From Pseudofulvimonas gallinarii (GTDB lineage: Bacteria; Pseudomonadota; Gammaproteobacteria; Xanthomonadales; UBA2363): a stretch of 64,000 bases of DNA. Made by a program: the position numbers and the translations under genes. Below the pieces are notes generated by a model, which was not told the origin of the DNA, made no database searches, and worked only from the letters and a program-made list of their open reading frames with translations. Below are positions 41,218 to 49,025 of the stretch, piece by piece (within the stretch, counting starts at the first letter, position 1; every line of letters starts with the position of its first letter). Location of the stretch: positions 62,001 to 126,000 of the forward strand of contig NZ_SMAF01000006.1 of assembly GCF_004343305.1 (NCBI RefSeq), written 5' to 3'.

Positions 41218-42516
41218 TCAGTCGCCGGCAAGTCCCTGGAGGCGGGCCGCGAGCATGTCCAGGCGGAGGGCGCCACAGGCACCCGCCGACACCCGCTGTT
41301 CGATGCTCGATCCAGCGCTGCGCTCGCCAGTCTGTTCCACGGCGTCGGCGACCTGCCGATAGGCATCGCGGAACGGTACGCCCCTTGCCGCCAGCTCGAT
41401 GGCCAGGTCGGTGGCGAACATGGAGGGTTCGATGGCGGCGTCCAGGCGTGCGGTCTGCCAGTCAAGATGGTCGATCAGCGCCGGCAGCAACGCCAGCGCG
41501 CGCAGGCCGTGCCCGAATCCGTGCACCAGTGCGCCCTTGCCCAGCTGCAGGTCGCGCTGGTAGCCGGAGGGCAGCGACAGCAGCTGCTCGATCTCGCTGC
41601 GCGACGCGGCCACCGCCGCGTAGCTGGCGCGCATCAGTTCGACCACATCCGGGTTGCGCTTGTTGGGCATGATCGAACTCCCGGTCGTGTACTGCGCCGG
41701 CAAGGCGACGAAGGCGTACTCCGACGTCGTGAACAGCGACAGGTCCCAAGCCAGGCGGCGAAGGTCCAGCATCGCGCTGGACAGGGCTTCCAGTGCCGCC
41801 ATTTCGAACTTGCCGCGTGACAGCTGCGCATAGGCCGGATTGACCTGCATGCGCGCGAACCCCAGCGCCTGCGTGGTGTACTCCCGGTCCAGCGGCAGGT
41901 TGACGCCATAGCCGGCGGCGGTGCCGAGCGGGTTGCAGTCGATCCACGCCAGCGTGTCGCGGGCACGGCGGGCATTGTCGATGAAGGCTTCCGCGTAACC
42001 GGCGTACCAGTGGCCGACGGTGCTGACCACCGCGCGCTGGAGGTGGGTGTAGCCGGGCATGGCGGTCTGTTCGTGGCGCGCGGCCTGCGTCAGTGCGATG
42101 CGCGCGGTGTCGGTGCAGACGTCCGCCAGCTGCCGCAGCCGTGCCTTCAGCCACAGGCGGGTCGCCGCCAGGATCTGGTCGTTGCGGCTGCGTCCGGTAT
42201 GGATCCGGCGGCCGGTGTCGCCGAGCCTTTCGGTAAGCCAGGTTTCAATGGCCGAATGGCCGTCCTCGAAGCGTTCGTCGAGCACGAAGTCGCCCGCGGC
42301 GAAGGCATCCGCCAGCGCCGCAAGTTCGCGTTCGATGCTGGCCAGCTCGTCTGCCGTCAGAAGGCCGATGCGCTGCAGGCCCTGCGCGTGTGCGCGGCTG
42401 GCCTCGATGTCGAAGGGCAGGAACTCGCGGTCGAGGATGACGTCGTCACCGGCCAGGAACTGCATGATGCGGGGGTCGATGCGCACGCCGTCCTTCTGCC
42501 AAAGCGGCTGGCTCAT
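41218..42516 (-). CDS. argH: Argininosuccinate lyase
   Basis: Catalyses the last step of arginine synthesis, splitting argininosuccinate to arginine and fumarate. The 432 residues carry the superfamily signature [16 protein letters not shown], the early motif [11 protein letters not shown], and GYTHLQRAV with the catalytic histidine. It is the last gene of the arg run, overlapping argC by 4 bp (ATGA). No terminator with a T-run follows. Confidence 0.96.
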
Positions 42517-43469
42517 GTCGGGATTCCTTCACATTCCGGTCGGCCGAAGGCCAGGTTGAGGTTCTGCACGGCCTGCGTGGCCGCACCCTTGAGCAGGTTG
42601 TCCAGCGTCGCGACGACCACGGCGCGGCGCCCGCCGGGCGCGATCGTGAAGGCACCGATCTCGGCGTGATGGCGGCCGGCGATCGCGCTCACCCAGGGCG
42701 CGTCATCGACGACGCGCGCCAGCGGCTCGCCCTCGTATCGCTGGCGAAAAAGCCGCACCAGCGTGTCCCGGTCCAGTGGCTCGCGCAGGTGCACGTTGGC
42801 GGTCAGGGTGATGCCACGGAAATGCGGCGCCACATGCGGCATGAACTCGACGGCGTGCGCCAGCTGGCGGCTGACCTCGCGTTCATGGATATGGTCGGCC
42901 AGCGCGTACGGCATCAGGTTGTCACGCAGTTTGTCGACATCGTTGCGGTCCGACGGCGTCGTGCCGGCGCCGGAATAGCCGGAAACGCCGAAGCACTGTG
43001 CCGGGCCGTCGAGCAGCGCGACGACGGGCGCCAGTGCCAGCTGCATCGCGGTGGCATAGCAGCCGGGGTTGCTGATGCGCCGCTCGCCGCGATAGCGCGC
43101 GCGCGTCAGTTCGGGGAGGCCGTAGAACCAGCGGTCATCGAAGCGGTAGTCGGCCGACAGGTCGATGATGACCACATCGGTGCCGGCACCATCGAAGGCC
43201 GCGACGAAACCGGCGGCCTTGCCGTTCGGCAGCGCCAGGATCACGGCATCGGCGCCGAGCGCCGGCAAGGCGGCGGGATCCGGCGCGATGTAGCGCAGGT
43301 CGCCGCGGTAGGCGTCGGCGTGATCGGCCAGCCGCTGTCCGGTCAGTTCACGCGAACAGATCCAGGCCAGCTCGAAGGCCGGATGGTTGGCGAGCAGGCG
43401 GACCAGTTCGCTGCCGGTATGGCCGCGCGCGCCGACGAGGCCGACGCGCAGCCGGGGAGTTGTACTCAT
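42513..43469 (-). CDS. argC: N-acetyl-gamma-glutamyl-phosphate reductase
   Basis: NADPH-dependent reductase that makes N-acetylglutamate semialdehyde. At 318 residues it has the N-terminal nucleotide loop [18 protein letters not shown] and the active-site Cys137 in [12 protein letters not shown]. The histidine-containing block [14 protein letters not shown] is also present. It overlaps argH and the GNAT gene by 4 bp on each side, so translation is coupled along the operon. Confidence 0.96.
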
Positions 43470-44095
43470 GACGGGATGCTTCCTTCATGTCGTGCCAGCC
43501 GCGCCTGCAGGTGCTGTTTCACGGCGGGCCATTCGCTGTCGATGATCGAGAACACCACGGTGTCGCGCACGCTGCCATCCGGATGCCGCTTGTGCCGTCG
43601 CAGGATGCCTTCCTCGCGCGCGCCGATCCCCGCCAGCGCCTTGCGCGATGCCAGGTTGAGCGTACTGGTCTCGAAAGCGACGCGCTGGCAGCGCAACACC
43701 TCGAAGGCATGGCCGAGCAGCAGCAGCTTGCACTCGCTGTTGACGCCGCTGCGGCGTACGCGTGGCAGGTACCAGGTATAGCCGATCGTCAGCTTCGGGA
43801 TGCTGCGGTCGATGTCGTAGAACCGCGTGCTGCCGATGACGTCGCCGTCGGTATCGATCACTACGAAAGGCAGCGACGAGCCTGCCGCCGCGGCTTCAAG
43901 GGCACGTTCGACATGGCGCTCCAGGGTCTGCGCCGTCGGCATGGCCGTATAGGGCAACGCATCCAGCTCTGTCACGGCGCGACGCAATGACGGCAGGTGC
44001 CCGGTCGACAGCGCCTGCAGGCGGACATGGCGACCGCTCAGCCCGACGGCGCCATTCCAGGTTTGCTGCGCCGGATCGGCGGACATGGCGATCAT
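43466..44095 (-). CDS. GNAT family acetyltransferase within the arg operon
   Basis: A 209-residue GNAT protein of RimJ/RimL-like shape: [18 protein letters not shown] at the start, [37 protein letters not shown] in place of the usual acetyl-CoA pyrophosphate loop, and [20 protein letters not shown]. The start ATG at 44095 overlaps the argB stop (ATGA) and is preceded by a G-rich run. A second ATG three codons later is possible. The same gene order occurs in xanthomonads as far as I recall, but its substrate is unknown; a link to arginine metabolism is inferred from position only. Confidence 0.8.
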
Positions 44096-45414
44096 CCCCC
44101 CAGCGTCGCCTGGCGGACACCGCAGTGCTCGACGCAGCGCTGCACCGACGCCCAGTCGTCCATTCCGTACCAGAACGCCTTCCAGTGTGCCTGCTTGAAG
44201 CAGCCGTCGGACTGCGCGTAGTAGAAATGGTTGGCCGGGTTGCCATGCCGCGAGCGCCAGAACAGGCTCGGCGTCTGCGCGCGCATCACGTCCCACACGG
44301 CGCGGCCCAGGCCTTCGCCCTGCGCATCCTCGAGGACGGCGAACTTGTCCATGTAGGTCTGGCCGTCAACGTCGTACAGGATGATCGCCGCGCGGTAGTT
44401 CTCGCTGACATAGGCACGCAGCAGCGGCGCGCGCTCGAAGTAGTCGGCAACCAGCTTGCGGCCGAAGCTGTCCTCGATCAGCTCGCGCAGGCGCCCGAGG
44501 TCCAGCTGCGACCAGCGGTCGGCCACCATGACCTTTTCGCCGCGGCGGACCAGCGTGCCGGAACCCTTGTGCGTGAACAGTTCCTTCGCCAGTTCCGACG
44601 GACGCGTGATCGACACCGAGGAAGAAAGCGGAAGGTGGTCGAGCAGGTGCTTGATCTGCTCCAGCTTCACGCGCATGCCGCCATTGATCCACGGCTGCGC
44701 GCACAGGTGGTCGAACTCGGTGGACAGGTTGATCGAATCGATGATCCTGCCCTGCTCGTCGAGGAGGCCGCCGGTGCCGGTCAGGAAAATGATCTTGTAC
44801 GGCTGCAGCGTCTGCACCAGCTCGTTGGCGGCGAAGTCGGCATTGATGTTGAGGATCTGGCCGCCGGCGGTTTCACCCAGGCTGGCGATCACCGGAATCG
44901 AACCGGCGCGCAGGCTGGCATGGATCGGCGCCAGGTCCACGCGCGTCACGCGGCCGACCAGGCCCAGGCGCTCCTGGTCGAGCAGCGCCGCCTCGAAGAC
45001 GCCGGAAACGATCGACGTCGCGCGCGCGTCGGCGCCCTGCAGTGCCTCGACCAGCGCCAGGTTCTGGGCGTGGAAGACGCGACGCACGATGGCCAGGGCT
45101 TCCGGCGACGTCACCCGCAGGCCGTCGACGGTCTGCTTCGCGATGCCGGCTTTGGACAACTCCTCGTCGAGCTGCGGCCCGGCGCCATGCAGCACGATCG
45201 GCGTCAGGCCGACATCCTGCAGGAAGGCCAGCGACGAAGTCAGGTCCTGCAGCTCGTCGCGCAGCACCGCGCCGCCGACCTTGACAACGGCGAAGCGCGC
45301 CGCATCCAGCTGCGAGAAGCGCTTGAGGTATTGCGAGATCTCCTTCGCGCTGGCCATGCTGGAGAGCAGGCGCACGATGGTCTGGCGGGTTTGCGGATCG
45401 TGGACTTTGATCAT
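44092..45414 (-). CDS. argB: Bifunctional N-acetylglutamate kinase / synthase (NAGS/K)
   Basis: The 440-residue protein joins an amino-acid-kinase domain (about 1-285: [51 protein letters not shown]) to a C-terminal NAT/GNAT-type acetyltransferase domain (about 290-440: [51 protein letters not shown]). In xanthomonads this fusion makes N-acetylglutamate and phosphorylates it. The start [11 protein letters not shown] overlaps the argE-like gene by ATGA. Arginine feedback is known for this enzyme family and is likely here. Confidence 0.93.
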
Positions 45415-46496
45415 GACAGGATGGCGGTGACCCGCTCGGCGTAGTGTTGCAGTTGATCCAGGGCGACCCATTCGTCGGCGCTGTGGGCCTGGGCGATGTC
45501 ACCCGGACCGTAGACCAGCGCGGTGTAGCCGGCCTGCGAGAACAGCGACGCTTCAGTCCAGAAGTCGACGGCGTTGCCGATGCCCAGGCCGAGTGCATCG
45601 GCGACGTCGCGGGCGGCGAGGCGGCGTTCCTCGGCGGTGGCGATGTTGCCGGCCGGCAGCGAAGGTCCACGGAAGGTCTCGGTGAACGCCGCGGCGGCGG
45701 GTTCGGCCAGCGAGGCGAATTCCTGCAGCAGCACGTCGATGTCGTTCGACGGCAACGGCCGGAAGCCGAAGCGCACTTCGCAGTCCGGTGCGATCACATT
45801 GCCCTTGATGCCGCCTTCGACGCGGCCGATGTTGAAGCGCAGGCCGGTGAGCCCGCCGAAGCGCTGGTGCGCATAGCCCTCGACATGGTCGAGGGCGCGC
45901 TGGCCCCAGCGGATGGCCTGGTGCACGGCGCTGTCGGCAGGGGCCTGCGTGCCGGAGGCATGGCCGGCGCGACCGGCGAAGCGCAGCAGCACCGAGCTGA
46001 TGCCGCGATGCGCGAGCACCGCTTCGCATCGCGTCGGCTCGGCGACCAGCACCGCCTCGTAGGGAATGCCGCGCGCCAGGAAGGCGGCGATGCAGCGCGG
46101 GTCGTTGGCCTCCTCGTCGGAGGAGAACAGGAAGGCGGCATCGCCTTCGGTGACTTCCGCTGCCGCGACCAGCGCCGCCGCGGCGCCCTTGATGTCGCAG
46201 GCGCCCAGGCCGATCGCCCGGTCCGCCGTCAGCCGCAGCTCGAACGGGCTGGCGGTCCAGTGCGGCGAATCCGGCACTGTGTCCAGGTGCACGTTGAACA
46301 GGTATCGCGGTTGGCCGCGAACGGCGTACAGCGACACCGCGCCGGCGCCGTGATCGGCCACGTCGACATTGAAGCCGCGCGCGGACAGCGCTTCGCGCAG
46401 GTAGGCGAAGATGCCGCCGCTGTCCATCGCCCGCGGTGGATTGCGGGTGTCGAAGGAGACCAGCGCTTTCAGGTGGCGCAGCGTGGCCTCAAGCAT
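45411..46496 (-). CDS. argE': N-acetyl-L-citrulline deacetylase (ArgE-like, M20 family)
   Basis: A 361-residue zinc-dependent M20 deacylase: metal ligands in [21 protein letters not shown] and SSDEEAND, with VAEPT and a C-terminal AHSADEW histidine. Because the pathway uses N-acetylornithine carbamoyltransferase, the expected substrate is acetylcitrulline rather than acetylornithine, as shown for the Xanthomonas enzyme. That assignment rests on operon context. It overlaps argG by 8 bp and argB by 4 bp. Confidence 0.88.
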
Positions 46497-47721
46497 GGTC
46501 GCCGTTGACCTGCGCCCACAGCGTCGAGCTCATGCCGAACAGCTTGATGAAACCCTCGGCCTCGGCAACGCCCCAGTCGGCGCTCTGGGCATAGGTTGCG
46601 CCGGCACTGGCCAGGATGTGTGGCGAACGCACGGCGACCGCGGACACGCTGCCGCCATGGGTTTCCAGCGTGACCTCGCCGTTGACGCAGCGCTGGCTGC
46701 TGGCCAGGAAGGCTTCCAGGTCGGCCTTCAACGGGTCGTGGTAGAACCCTTCATACACCAGCTCCACCCACTTGCGCGCCACCTCGGGCTTGAAGCGGTT
46801 CTGCTGCTTGCTGAGCACGGCTTCCTCGAGCGCGCGATGCGCCGCCAGCAGCGCGGTCAGGCCCGGCGCCTCGTAGACGATGCGTCCCTTTAGGCCGATG
46901 GTGGTGTCGCCGGTGTACATGCCGCGACCGACGCCATACGGCGCGAACAGGCGGTTCAGTCCTGCCAGCAGCGAATGACCTGCCATCTTCTCGCCGTTGA
47001 GCGACACCGCTTCGCCCTTCACGAAGCCCAGCGTCGCGCGCAACGGCTGCGTCGGCCACTGCGCTCGCGCGGCGCACCAGCCGCGCGCCCCTTCGCCGGG
47101 GGCTTCCCAGGCATCGATCTCGCCGCCGGACAGGGTCACGCCGAGCAGGTTCTCGTTGATCGTGTAGTGCTTCTGGCTGCTGCGCACGGTGAAGCCGCGC
47201 TCTTCCAGATAGGCCTGTTCGTAGGCGCGCGTCTGCGTGTGCTCCTTCTGGATCTCGCGGATCGGCGCGACGATGCGGTAATCGCCACGCGACTTCACGG
47301 CGAGGTCGAAACGGACCTGGTCGTTGCCCATGCCGGTGCAGCCGTGCGCGATGGCGCGCGTGCCAAGCTCGGCGGCGCGCTCCAGCGCCGCGTCGACAAT
47401 CAGGTAGCGGTCGGACACGAGCAGCGGATACTGGCCCTGGTAGGGTTCGCCGGCCCAGACGAACGGCTTGACGAAACCGTTCCAGATCGCCGGACCACCG
47501 TCGATGGTGACGTGGCTGGCGACGCCCAGTTCCTTGGCACGCGCTTCGATGTAGGCACGTTCCTCGTCATCGACACCGCCGGTGTCGGCGAACACGGTGT
47601 GCACGGCCCAGCCGCGTTCCTGCAGCCAGGGAATGCAGAAGCTGGTGTCGAGACCACCGGAGAAGGCCAGGACGATGTCTTTGCTGCCGTCGGCAGCAGG
47701 GGGAGCGGAACTGGTGGACAT
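46489..47721 (-). CDS. argG: Argininosuccinate synthase
   Basis: Joins citrulline and aspartate using ATP. The start [15 protein letters not shown] gives 410 residues; the longer open frame upstream is unlike the family. The N-type ATP pyrophosphatase loop is [26 protein letters not shown] and the C-terminal [19 protein letters not shown] are typical. It begins 56 bp after the carbamoyltransferase stop, the only real gap in the operon. The intervening sequence has no terminator that I can see. Confidence 0.95.
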
Positions 47722-47777: not shown

Positions 47778-48797
47778 TCAGGCCGGCGCTGGGCCGGCCA
47801 GCCAGGCCATCACCGCTTTCTGCACATGCAGGCGGTTCTCGGCCTCGTCGATGGCGCCGCAGTAGTCGGCGTCCATCACCGCGTCGGTGGCCTTGATGTT
47901 CCGGCGCAGCGGCAGGCAATGGCTGAAGACGGCATTGTTGGTGAGCGCCATCTTCGCCTCGTCCACCATGAAGTGGCGGTGGGCGTCGCGGATCGGCTTT
48001 TCCGGGCCCCAGTTGCCGAAGTAGGGCAGGGCGCCCCAGCTCTTCGCATAGACGACGTCGGCACCGCCGTAGGCCGATTCGATGTCATGGCTGATGCTGA
48101 GCGAGCCACCGGATTCGGCGACGTTGCCGCGCGCCTGCTGCATGAACTGTTCGTCAAGCACATACTCGGGCGTCGGGCACAGCAAGGTGACATCGAAGCC
48201 CAGGCGGGTGGCGATCAGCAGCGCCGAGTTGGCGACGGCGGTGTTCAGCGGCTTGGGGTGATACGTCCAGGTCAGCACGTACTTGCGGCCGCGGAAGTCC
48301 TTCGTTCCCAGCCGGTCGCGCAACATCATCGCGTGCGCCAGTTCCTGGCAGGGATGCAGGATGGTCTCCATGTTGATGACCGGCACGGCCGCGTGGCGTG
48401 CGAACGACTTCAGCACCTTGTCCTGGCGGTCCTCCTGCCAGTCGACGAACTTCGGGAAGGCGCGCAGGCCGATCAGGTCCACGTAGCGCGACAGCACGCG
48501 CGCGACCTCGGCGATGTGCTCCTCGGCGTCGCCGTCCATGACCGCATTCGGTGCGAACTCGATGCCCCAGGCGTCCTTGCCCGGCTGCAGCACCACGGCA
48601 TGGCCGCCGAGCTGCCAGGTGCCCAGCTCGAACGAGGTGCGCGTGCGCATCGACGGGTTGAGGAACAGCAGCGCCACCGACTTGCCGCGCAGGGCGTCGC
48701 CGAACTTCGTGTTGCGGTAGCCGTCGGCGGCGTCGAGCAGGCGCTCCAGTTCGTCGCGGCTGAGGTCCTGGGTGCTGAGGAAGTGTCGGATGGCCAT
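47778..48797 (-). CDS. argF': N-acetylornithine carbamoyltransferase
   Basis: Transfers a carbamoyl group to N-acetylornithine, making N-acetylcitrulline. The 339 residues contain the carbamoyl-phosphate loop [11 protein letters not shown]. Three features distinguish this enzyme from ordinary OTCase in the Xanthomonas structure: Trp77 (KDAWGIEF), Glu92 (DGDAEEH) and Lys302 ([14 protein letters not shown]), which is carboxylated there. All fall at the same residue numbers here. It is the first gene of the arg operon. The region just before the ATG is pyrimidine-rich without a clear Shine-Dalgarno sequence, and a terminator hairpin lies 33 bp upstream, consistent with attenuated transcription. 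Confidence 0.95.
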
Positions 48798-48830: not shown

Positions 48831-48858
48831 AAAAAACCCGGCACGGGGGCCGGGTTTT
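48831..48858 (-). terminator. Terminator/attenuator hairpin upstream of the arg operon
   Basis: On the minus strand a perfect 10-bp stem AAAACCCGGC/GCCGGGTTTT with a 6-nt loop continues into a total of six T residues. It lies 33 bp before the first arg gene, in the same direction, with no upstream gene on that strand for it to terminate. An upstream GGCCGG (48893-48888) can pair with the terminator's own 5' arm and could serve as an antiterminator. Confidence 0.8.
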
Positions 48859-48881
48859 CATGCAGACGCGTGCGGACGCGC

Positions 48882-48932
48882 TCAGGACCGGCCGGACAGG
48901 TTCGGTTCCAGTCGACGCGCGCGCGAGGTCAT
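48882..48932 (-). CDS. Candidate arginine leader peptide (16 codons)
   Basis: The short frame MTSRARRLEPNLSGRS ends 24 bp before the terminator hairpin. It has four arginine codons, three of them in the run CGC-GCG-CGT-CGA. A 5-bp hairpin (CGCGT/ACGCG, 48880-48867) lies between its stop and the terminator and can also pair with the arginine-codon region. The same frame is open further upstream from 48998, so the true start is uncertain. There is no good ribosome-binding site. Translation is a hypothesis based on position and codon content. GC-rich DNA is arginine-rich by default, which weakens the case. Confidence 0.45.
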   Translation of the reverse strand: MTSRARRLEPNLSGRS

Positions 48933-48996
48933 ACCGGACGCCAGACGGGCGCCGGAAAGGCCATTCGCGATCGCTGCGGTGCACAACATGCCGGGC

Positions 48997-49025
48997 ATGC
49001 TAGCGCCGGCCCGGCCTGGCCGCAA
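48997..49025 (-). promoter_or_regulatory. Possible promoter of the arg leader
   Basis: Minus strand: TTGCGG (49025-49020), a 17-bp spacer and TAGCAT (49002-48997). The -35 is weak (three of six); the -10 matches four of six. Transcription would begin about 55 nt before the leader ATG. Confidence 0.35.

Follow-up and report, generated by a model that had tools for sequence, protein, structure and literature searches.

The arginine biosynthetic operon that begins with argF' in Pseudofulvimonas gallinarii is very likely controlled by a ribosome-mediated transcription attenuator, located directly upstream of argF', that senses charged tRNA-Arg. This reading comes from a comparative analysis of a 64,000-nucleotide stretch of contig NZ_SMAF01000006.1, which we refer to as the window, and of the corresponding regions of related genomes. 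The anatomy of the leader, its conservation, the preservation of its pairings and its predicted fold switch were all established by computation.

Anatomy of the argF' leader

The operon lies on the minus strand (Table 1). Its last two genes were named by sequence knowledge, and we take them to encode acetylglutamyl-phosphate reductase (argC) and argininosuccinate lyase (argH). An open reading frame for a GNAT-type acetyltransferase (43466..44100, minus strand) lies between argB/A and argC within the operon and gave no NCBIfam equivalog match.

An initial annotation of this DNA had placed a terminator 33 bp before the first arg gene, on a strand with nothing upstream to terminate, and both observations hold. 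The terminator reads CCCGGC-CCCCGT-GCCGGG-TTTTTT (48854..48831), folds with 11 pairs, A-U pairs included, and has its end 33 nt upstream of the argF' start codon (ATG at 48797), which places an intrinsic terminator between the leader reading frame and the first structural gene. Since the upstream neighbor of the leader is a divergent YihY-family gene on the plus strand, the terminator ends no gene. The 16-codon frame reported in the same annotation, MTSRARRLEPNLSGRS (48932..48882, minus strand), is present with its Arg codons CGC, CGT and CGA, but its proposed start codon did not stand, and the frame is the 3' half of a reading frame that is open further upstream. The GGCCGG element was likewise found to pair as had been suggested, its partner being CCGGCC (48853..48848) in the 5' arm of the terminator, and the 5-bp intermediate hairpin that had been described is also found and falls inside the predicted antiterminator.

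The frame is open upstream in the 147 relatives as well, and an ATG (in some, a GTG) nearly always occurs 18-20 codons before the peptide motif MTSRARR. Judging from these relatives and from the likely -10 box, the leader in the window probably starts at the ATG at 48989 and spans 35 codons; a second ATG in the same frame, at 48998, shares bases with the -10 box. The candidate promoter is weak, with 7/12 consensus matches, which is under the threshold of the promoter scan. It predicts that transcription starts near 48990, where the leader ATG lies. Since the promoter ends 7 nt before the ATG at 48989, the leader transcript is predicted to be leaderless or nearly so, and the leader of the window probably is. 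The predicted start agrees with the 5'-RACE end of Xoo5, an RNA of Xanthomonas considered below, which lies 2 nt before the leader ATG.

Table 1. Features of the argF' leader and the arg operon in the window.
Feature	Coordinates	Strand	Basis or remark
Candidate promoter: TTGCGG (49025-49020), 17 nt, TAGCAT (49002-48997)	48997..49025	-	Direct reading
Leader peptide reading frame, probably 35 aa, MLCTAAIANGLSGARLASGMTSRARRLEPNLSGRS	48989..48882	-	Start position common to nearly all relatives
Control codons CGC GCG CGT CGA (Arg-Ala-Arg-Arg)	48912..48923	-	R-A-R-R in 147/147 leaders
Predicted antiterminator 5' element GGCCGG, last codons before the leader stop	48888..48893	-	Pairs with terminator
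Intrinsic terminator, hairpin and U-tract	48831..48858	-	5' arm 48853-48848 shared with antiterminator
arg operon, order argF'-argG-argE'-argB/A-(GNAT)-argC-argH		-	argF' first
argF', N-acetylornithine carbamoyltransferase	47778..48797	-	NF003384, E 2e-174, exceeds cut-off
argG, argininosuccinate synthase	46489..47718	-	NF003385, E 1e-227; start approximate
argE', acetylcitrulline/acetylornithine deacetylase	45411..46496	-	NF006439, E 3e-191
argB/argA, fused acetylglutamate kinase/synthase	44092..45417	-	NF003386, E 1e-241; start approximate
argC (presumed)	42513..43469	-	Translation
argH (presumed)	41218..42516	-	Translation

Conservation of the leader across the order

The argF' upstream regions of the order were gathered by protein search, by pattern and by region. 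The core MTSRARR, sought as a 20-base pattern, occurs in 263 of the 266 genomes of four families (f1, f2, f3 and f12). Two of the three genomes that miss it are incomplete assemblies, and the third, a Xanthomonas-type genome (L145), has MASRARR instead. Outside the order, matches in 2 of 364 genomes were taken as chance. Within it, L038 (family f9) and L079 (the second match in G223) were set aside as lacking a leader context. Given that the same layout is found in the 147 leaders examined, and that each genome of the four families has roughly one copy of the pattern, which is seen in 2/364 genomes outside the order, the layout is far beyond chance. A contig scan with the core pattern returned at least 120 stretches, and the matches listed include Xanthomonas, Stenotrophomonas, Lysobacter, Luteimonas, Pseudoxanthomonas, Dyella, Rhodanobacter, Frateuria, Luteibacter, Dokdonella, Tahibacter, Arenimonas and other Lysobacterales. 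In all 146 loci that could be placed, the leader is on the argF' strand and 121-738 nt upstream of the gene. Most of the 147 leaders, all of which encode R-A-R-R, were picked by pattern; in a non-circular subset of 62 loci picked by argF' alone (L001-L030, L119-L150), R-A-R-R is found in 61, as is the exact MTSRARR.

The Thr, Arg, Ala and Arg codons of the core vary at their third positions while the amino acids stay constant, which argues that the leader frame is translated. The residues near the Arg codons are also nearly fixed (A at -6 and -3, G at -1, MTS, the A between the Args, and the P that follows), so that the core of these four families can be written A..A.GMTSRARRP; the codons TCG, CGA and CCG within it are nearly fixed. 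Conservation at the peptide level extends well beyond the Arg codons and exceeds what plain attenuation requires. Over 120 gap-free leader sequences, neither a conserved RNA helix or consensus secondary structure nor a conserved 1:2 protector hairpin was found.

Families f4-f10 lack MTSRARR. At 62 of their 88 argF' loci, an unrelated leader peptide with a run of Arg codons occupies the same place, for example IRRRRRRDPALAG, or NPRRRRVSQSTAG, LRRRRRLSQRRAG and VVVRRRRPLRQMELFG, the last three written through to the stop, and is followed by a pairing element and a terminator. All 62 contain Arg-Arg, and the 60 nt that precede the element hold 4.9 Arg codons on average; a translated reading frame with clustered Arg codons is accordingly present in 147/147 leaders of the four core families and in 62/62 of the others. 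Two script matches (L305 and L355) were discarded as unconvincing leaders. Codon-dependent attenuation finds its strongest evidence in this comparison, in which different peptides with the same Arg codons share one layout. The element is missing from many f9 genomes that have argF', which indicates that the attenuator can be lost. At the f9 loci L167, L173, L301-L303 and L306-L312 no recognizable leader or terminator was seen at argF', and no ArgR match was found in f9; here the attenuator seems to have been lost or the gene context changed. Several f7 leaders (L163, L170, L344, L350-L353) share another semi-conserved peptide, GF(R)HLRR(S/P)...PGWVAV, which is likewise more conserved than the Arg codons alone require.

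The choice of Arg codons was compared with codon usage in the genes of the window. None of the 441 core Arg codons is CGG, a codon that makes up 16% of Arg codons in window genes, whereas CGA accounts for 142-143 of the 441 (32%) compared to 13 of 354 (4%) in window genes. CGA occupies the last core Arg position in 142 of the 147 leaders, and it makes up 99 of the 301 Arg codons of the leaders in other families. A single isoacceptor, tRNA-Arg(ICG), reads CGU, CGC and CGA, the last of them poorly. Since no core Arg codon is CGG, the standard reading of tRNA-Arg(ICG) has all of them read by this one isoacceptor, and the leader appears from its codon choice to read the charge of a single tRNA. 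Among 151 genomes of the order, 8 gave a match to the ArgR domain (PF02863), all of them from f11, the family without a close argF', and the domain is absent from the other 143; within these 151 genomes the attenuator families gave no match. A regulon survey describes ArgR as conserved in many gammaproteobacterial groups (PMC5343134). We infer that attenuation replaced repression in the attenuator families.

A predicted fold switch and the proposed sensing of arginine

A GCYGGGT element at +38 or +39 from the core ATG is found in 133 of the 147 leaders of f1, f2, f3 and f12, where it pairs with the 5' arm of the terminator. It overlaps or nearly overlaps the leader stop and usually spans the last two codons and the stop itself. 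The pairing in these families is kept through sequence change, as GCCGGGT/ACCCGGC and GCTGGGT/ACCCAGC. The f8 leaders pair as GCCAGGTT/AACCTGGY, or as GCTCTTTGG/CCAAAGAGC extending into the loop, and those of f7 also as GTCGG/CCGAC. The mean energy of the leaders' own duplexes is -15.6 kcal/mol, a value reached in 0 of 200 permutations with kinship ignored, versus -14.0 kcal/mol for permuted partners. On the argF' tree the C/T-G/A site shows 6-8 changes, nearly always in step when both sides changed and hardly ever in the opposite direction, the supported independent pairs being too few for significance. An antiterminator that shares an arm with the terminator has been preserved through sequence change, with few independent single-site changes. 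The leader-peptide attenuation layout first read from the window DNA is supported by these comparisons: relatives conserve the frame and its Arg codons, the hairpin pairings persist, other families keep Arg runs, and the leader precedes the hairpin, where a start 3' of it would have spoken against the layout.

We modeled the effect of a ribosome by masking its footprint, assumed to reach about 13 nt to the 3' side of the A site, and folding the remainder of the leader. For the window, this model gives the antiterminator a probability of 0.95-0.96 with the ribosome at Arg5 or Arg6, and the terminator a probability of 1.0 both when the ribosome is at the stop codon and when there is none. Terminator formation without a ribosome is expected of attenuators that default to off in the absence of translation. 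With the ribosome at Arg3, the terminator of the window is still favored at equilibrium (0.92). Across 143 leaders, the mean probability of the terminator is 1.0 at the stop, 0.24 at Arg5, 0.36 at Arg6 and 0.78 without a ribosome, and shuffling the linker raises the value at Arg6 to 0.88. When leaders are folded by free energy without a ribosome, the antiterminator remains in about a fifth of them. By secondary-structure computation, a ribosome at the stop codon masks the antiterminator and one stalled at the control codons does not.

In the mechanism that we propose, RNA polymerase would transcribe the leader and a ribosome would start at once on the nearly leaderless mRNA. When arginine is plentiful, the ribosome would reach the stop codon and cover GGCCGG in the last codons, the terminator hairpin would form, and transcription would end 33 nt before argF'. 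When arginine is scarce, the ribosome would stall at CGC-GCG-CGU-CGA and leave the downstream element free to pair with the 5' arm of the terminator, so that polymerase would continue into argF'-argG-argE'-argB/A-argC-argH. The enzymes of arginine synthesis are thus probably made only when arginine is short. Ribosome stalling, dependence on arginine and premature termination in vivo are what we infer from the computed features.

The frozen core invites a different view of the sensor, in which the leader peptide itself would contact the ribosome tunnel and arginine or another molecule of the pathway, and the ribosome would be halted by nascent-chain arrest and not by uncharged tRNA-Arg. Conservation past the Arg codons in 263/266 genomes with third positions free, the lack of a conserved RNA helix at the core, its nearly fixed TCG, CGA and CCG codons, and the recurrence of Arg-Arg-Pro in 24 of the 62 leaders of other families, in otherwise unrelated peptides, are all consistent with such a sensor. 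However, the layout is kept in these other families although their peptides are unrelated and have nothing in common but Arg runs, which speaks for reading of codons, and a ligand-induced stall at the core would turn the operon on at high arginine, the wrong direction for biosynthetic genes, unless the stall were at the stop. We consider arrest in place of tRNA sensing unlikely, and judge a contribution of the nascent chain to stalling to be improbable to the same degree. That A..A.GMTSRARRP acts as a regulatory nascent peptide, tuning or sensing arginine in the ribosome on top of codon-dependent stalling, is doubtful; if true, it would make the leader a combined tRNA-charge and nascent-chain arginine sensor in a bacterial biosynthetic operon.

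Relation to sRNA-Xoo5 and to known leaders

The putative attenuator leader of argF' has a described counterpart. In Xanthomonas oryzae, sRNA-Xoo5, described in 2011 and verified by Northern blot, lies between PXO_00354 and PXO_00353, the latter named N-acetylornithine carbamoyltransferase (PMC3039613). The available parts of that report treat Xoo5, which was cloned and whose Northern signal changes with growth phase, as a small RNA, and they do not mention attenuation for it. The Rfam model of Xoo5 (RF02242) matches several relatives at 98-148 bits, full length and exactly on the leader; scores of 51-148 bits were obtained for L012, L013, L014, L019, L022, L024 and L027. Like the leader in the window, Xoo5 sits directly before argF' and contains a homologous leader with the shared MTSRARR core. 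The 5' end of Xoo5 has been mapped by RACE. Judged by sequence and position, the Xoo5 RNA is the argF' leader. The window copy scores 23.4 bits (E 0.014), under the gathering score of 50, and its homology to Xoo5 therefore rests on place, peptide and layout. The 3' end of Xoo5, taken from clones, falls about 10 nt before the terminator hairpin, and the Northern bands are of about 130 and 100 nt versus the approximately 158 nt expected; trimming is a possible account of the short sizes. The Xoo5 paper also lists that in a mutant of the unrelated sRNA-Xoo1 of X. oryzae, the up-regulated protein spots include the products of argF' (PXO_00353) and argG (PXO_00352), and there may be a second layer of control on the arg operon besides the leader.

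In contrast to our reading of the window leader, Xoo5 was described as a small non-coding RNA with no function assigned to it, and is so filed in Rfam. That filing, together with its cloning and its growth-phase-dependent Northern signal, would suit a trans-acting small RNA with its own terminator that stands before argF' by chance and has no control over it. We regard this as very unlikely, given that argF' follows the RNA directly, and on the same strand, in every case (146/146), that the best-conserved part of the RNA is a translated frame containing the amino acid of the pathway itself, that its terminator pairing is preserved, and that unrelated sequences elsewhere keep the layout. The Xoo5 RNA could have an additional, second role. 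GC-rich DNA often gives hairpins and short frames, and 0.8 terminator-like sites are expected by chance in the region, but a terminator or insulator that acts constitutively, or a hairpin that arose by chance beside a spurious frame, is highly improbable in view of the absence of anything upstream to terminate, the order-wide layout, the codon-level conservation and a fold switch that depends on where the stop codon lies. A riboswitch that binds arginine directly would share the 5' leader and the choice between terminator and antiterminator, but with a translated frame as the conserved part, no consensus structure over the 120 gap-free sequences, and an Rfam scan of the window and relatives for known attenuators and riboswitches that returned only Xoo5 and chance matches, its probability is close to negligible.

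Leader-peptide transcription attenuators control the his, trp, thr, leu, ilv and phe operons of Gammaproteobacteria. The putative argF' attenuator resembles them in its short leader rich in codons for the end product, in a stop codon placed at the antiterminator, and in having, ahead of biosynthetic genes, an antiterminator and an intrinsic terminator that exclude each other. It differs in that its amino acid is arginine, in being a simpler, two-way switch for which no conserved 1:2 protector hairpin was found, in its probable nearly leaderless start and in a peptide core that is frozen in part of the order.

Two other leaders invite comparison. Ribosome pausing at consecutive Arg codons of orf34 in the Salmonella speF leader switches mRNA folding with arginine, but there the target is ornithine decarboxylase, acting through Rho, RNase G and the speF ribosome-binding site (PMC6386406), whereas the argF' leader precedes an arginine biosynthetic operon and has an intrinsic terminator. 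The Pseudomonas carA leader also combines a leader peptide with proposed attenuation, at a gene common to arginine and pyrimidine synthesis; attenuation there is ascribed to pyrimidines and arginine acts at transcription, as cited in PMC4997734, and both the gene and the order are different.

According to the initial annotation, arginine attenuation is not known to be established in this order, and we found no account of it for the Xanthomonadales in the searchable literature, a weak negative in that most subscription journals lie outside the search. The argF' leader is apparently an arginine member of the leader-peptide attenuators, order-wide and unreported in that literature. Arginine would thereby join the amino acids for which leader-peptide attenuation seems to control the operon of synthesis, and the orphan sRNA Xoo5 and Rfam family RF02242 would gain an assigned function. 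The frozen peptide core beyond the Arg codons, a feature that plain attenuation leaves unexplained, poses a testable question. For the order, which includes the plant pathogens Xanthomonas and Xylella and the opportunist Stenotrophomonas, the attenuator would provide a mechanism for controlling arginine synthesis where ArgR was not found.
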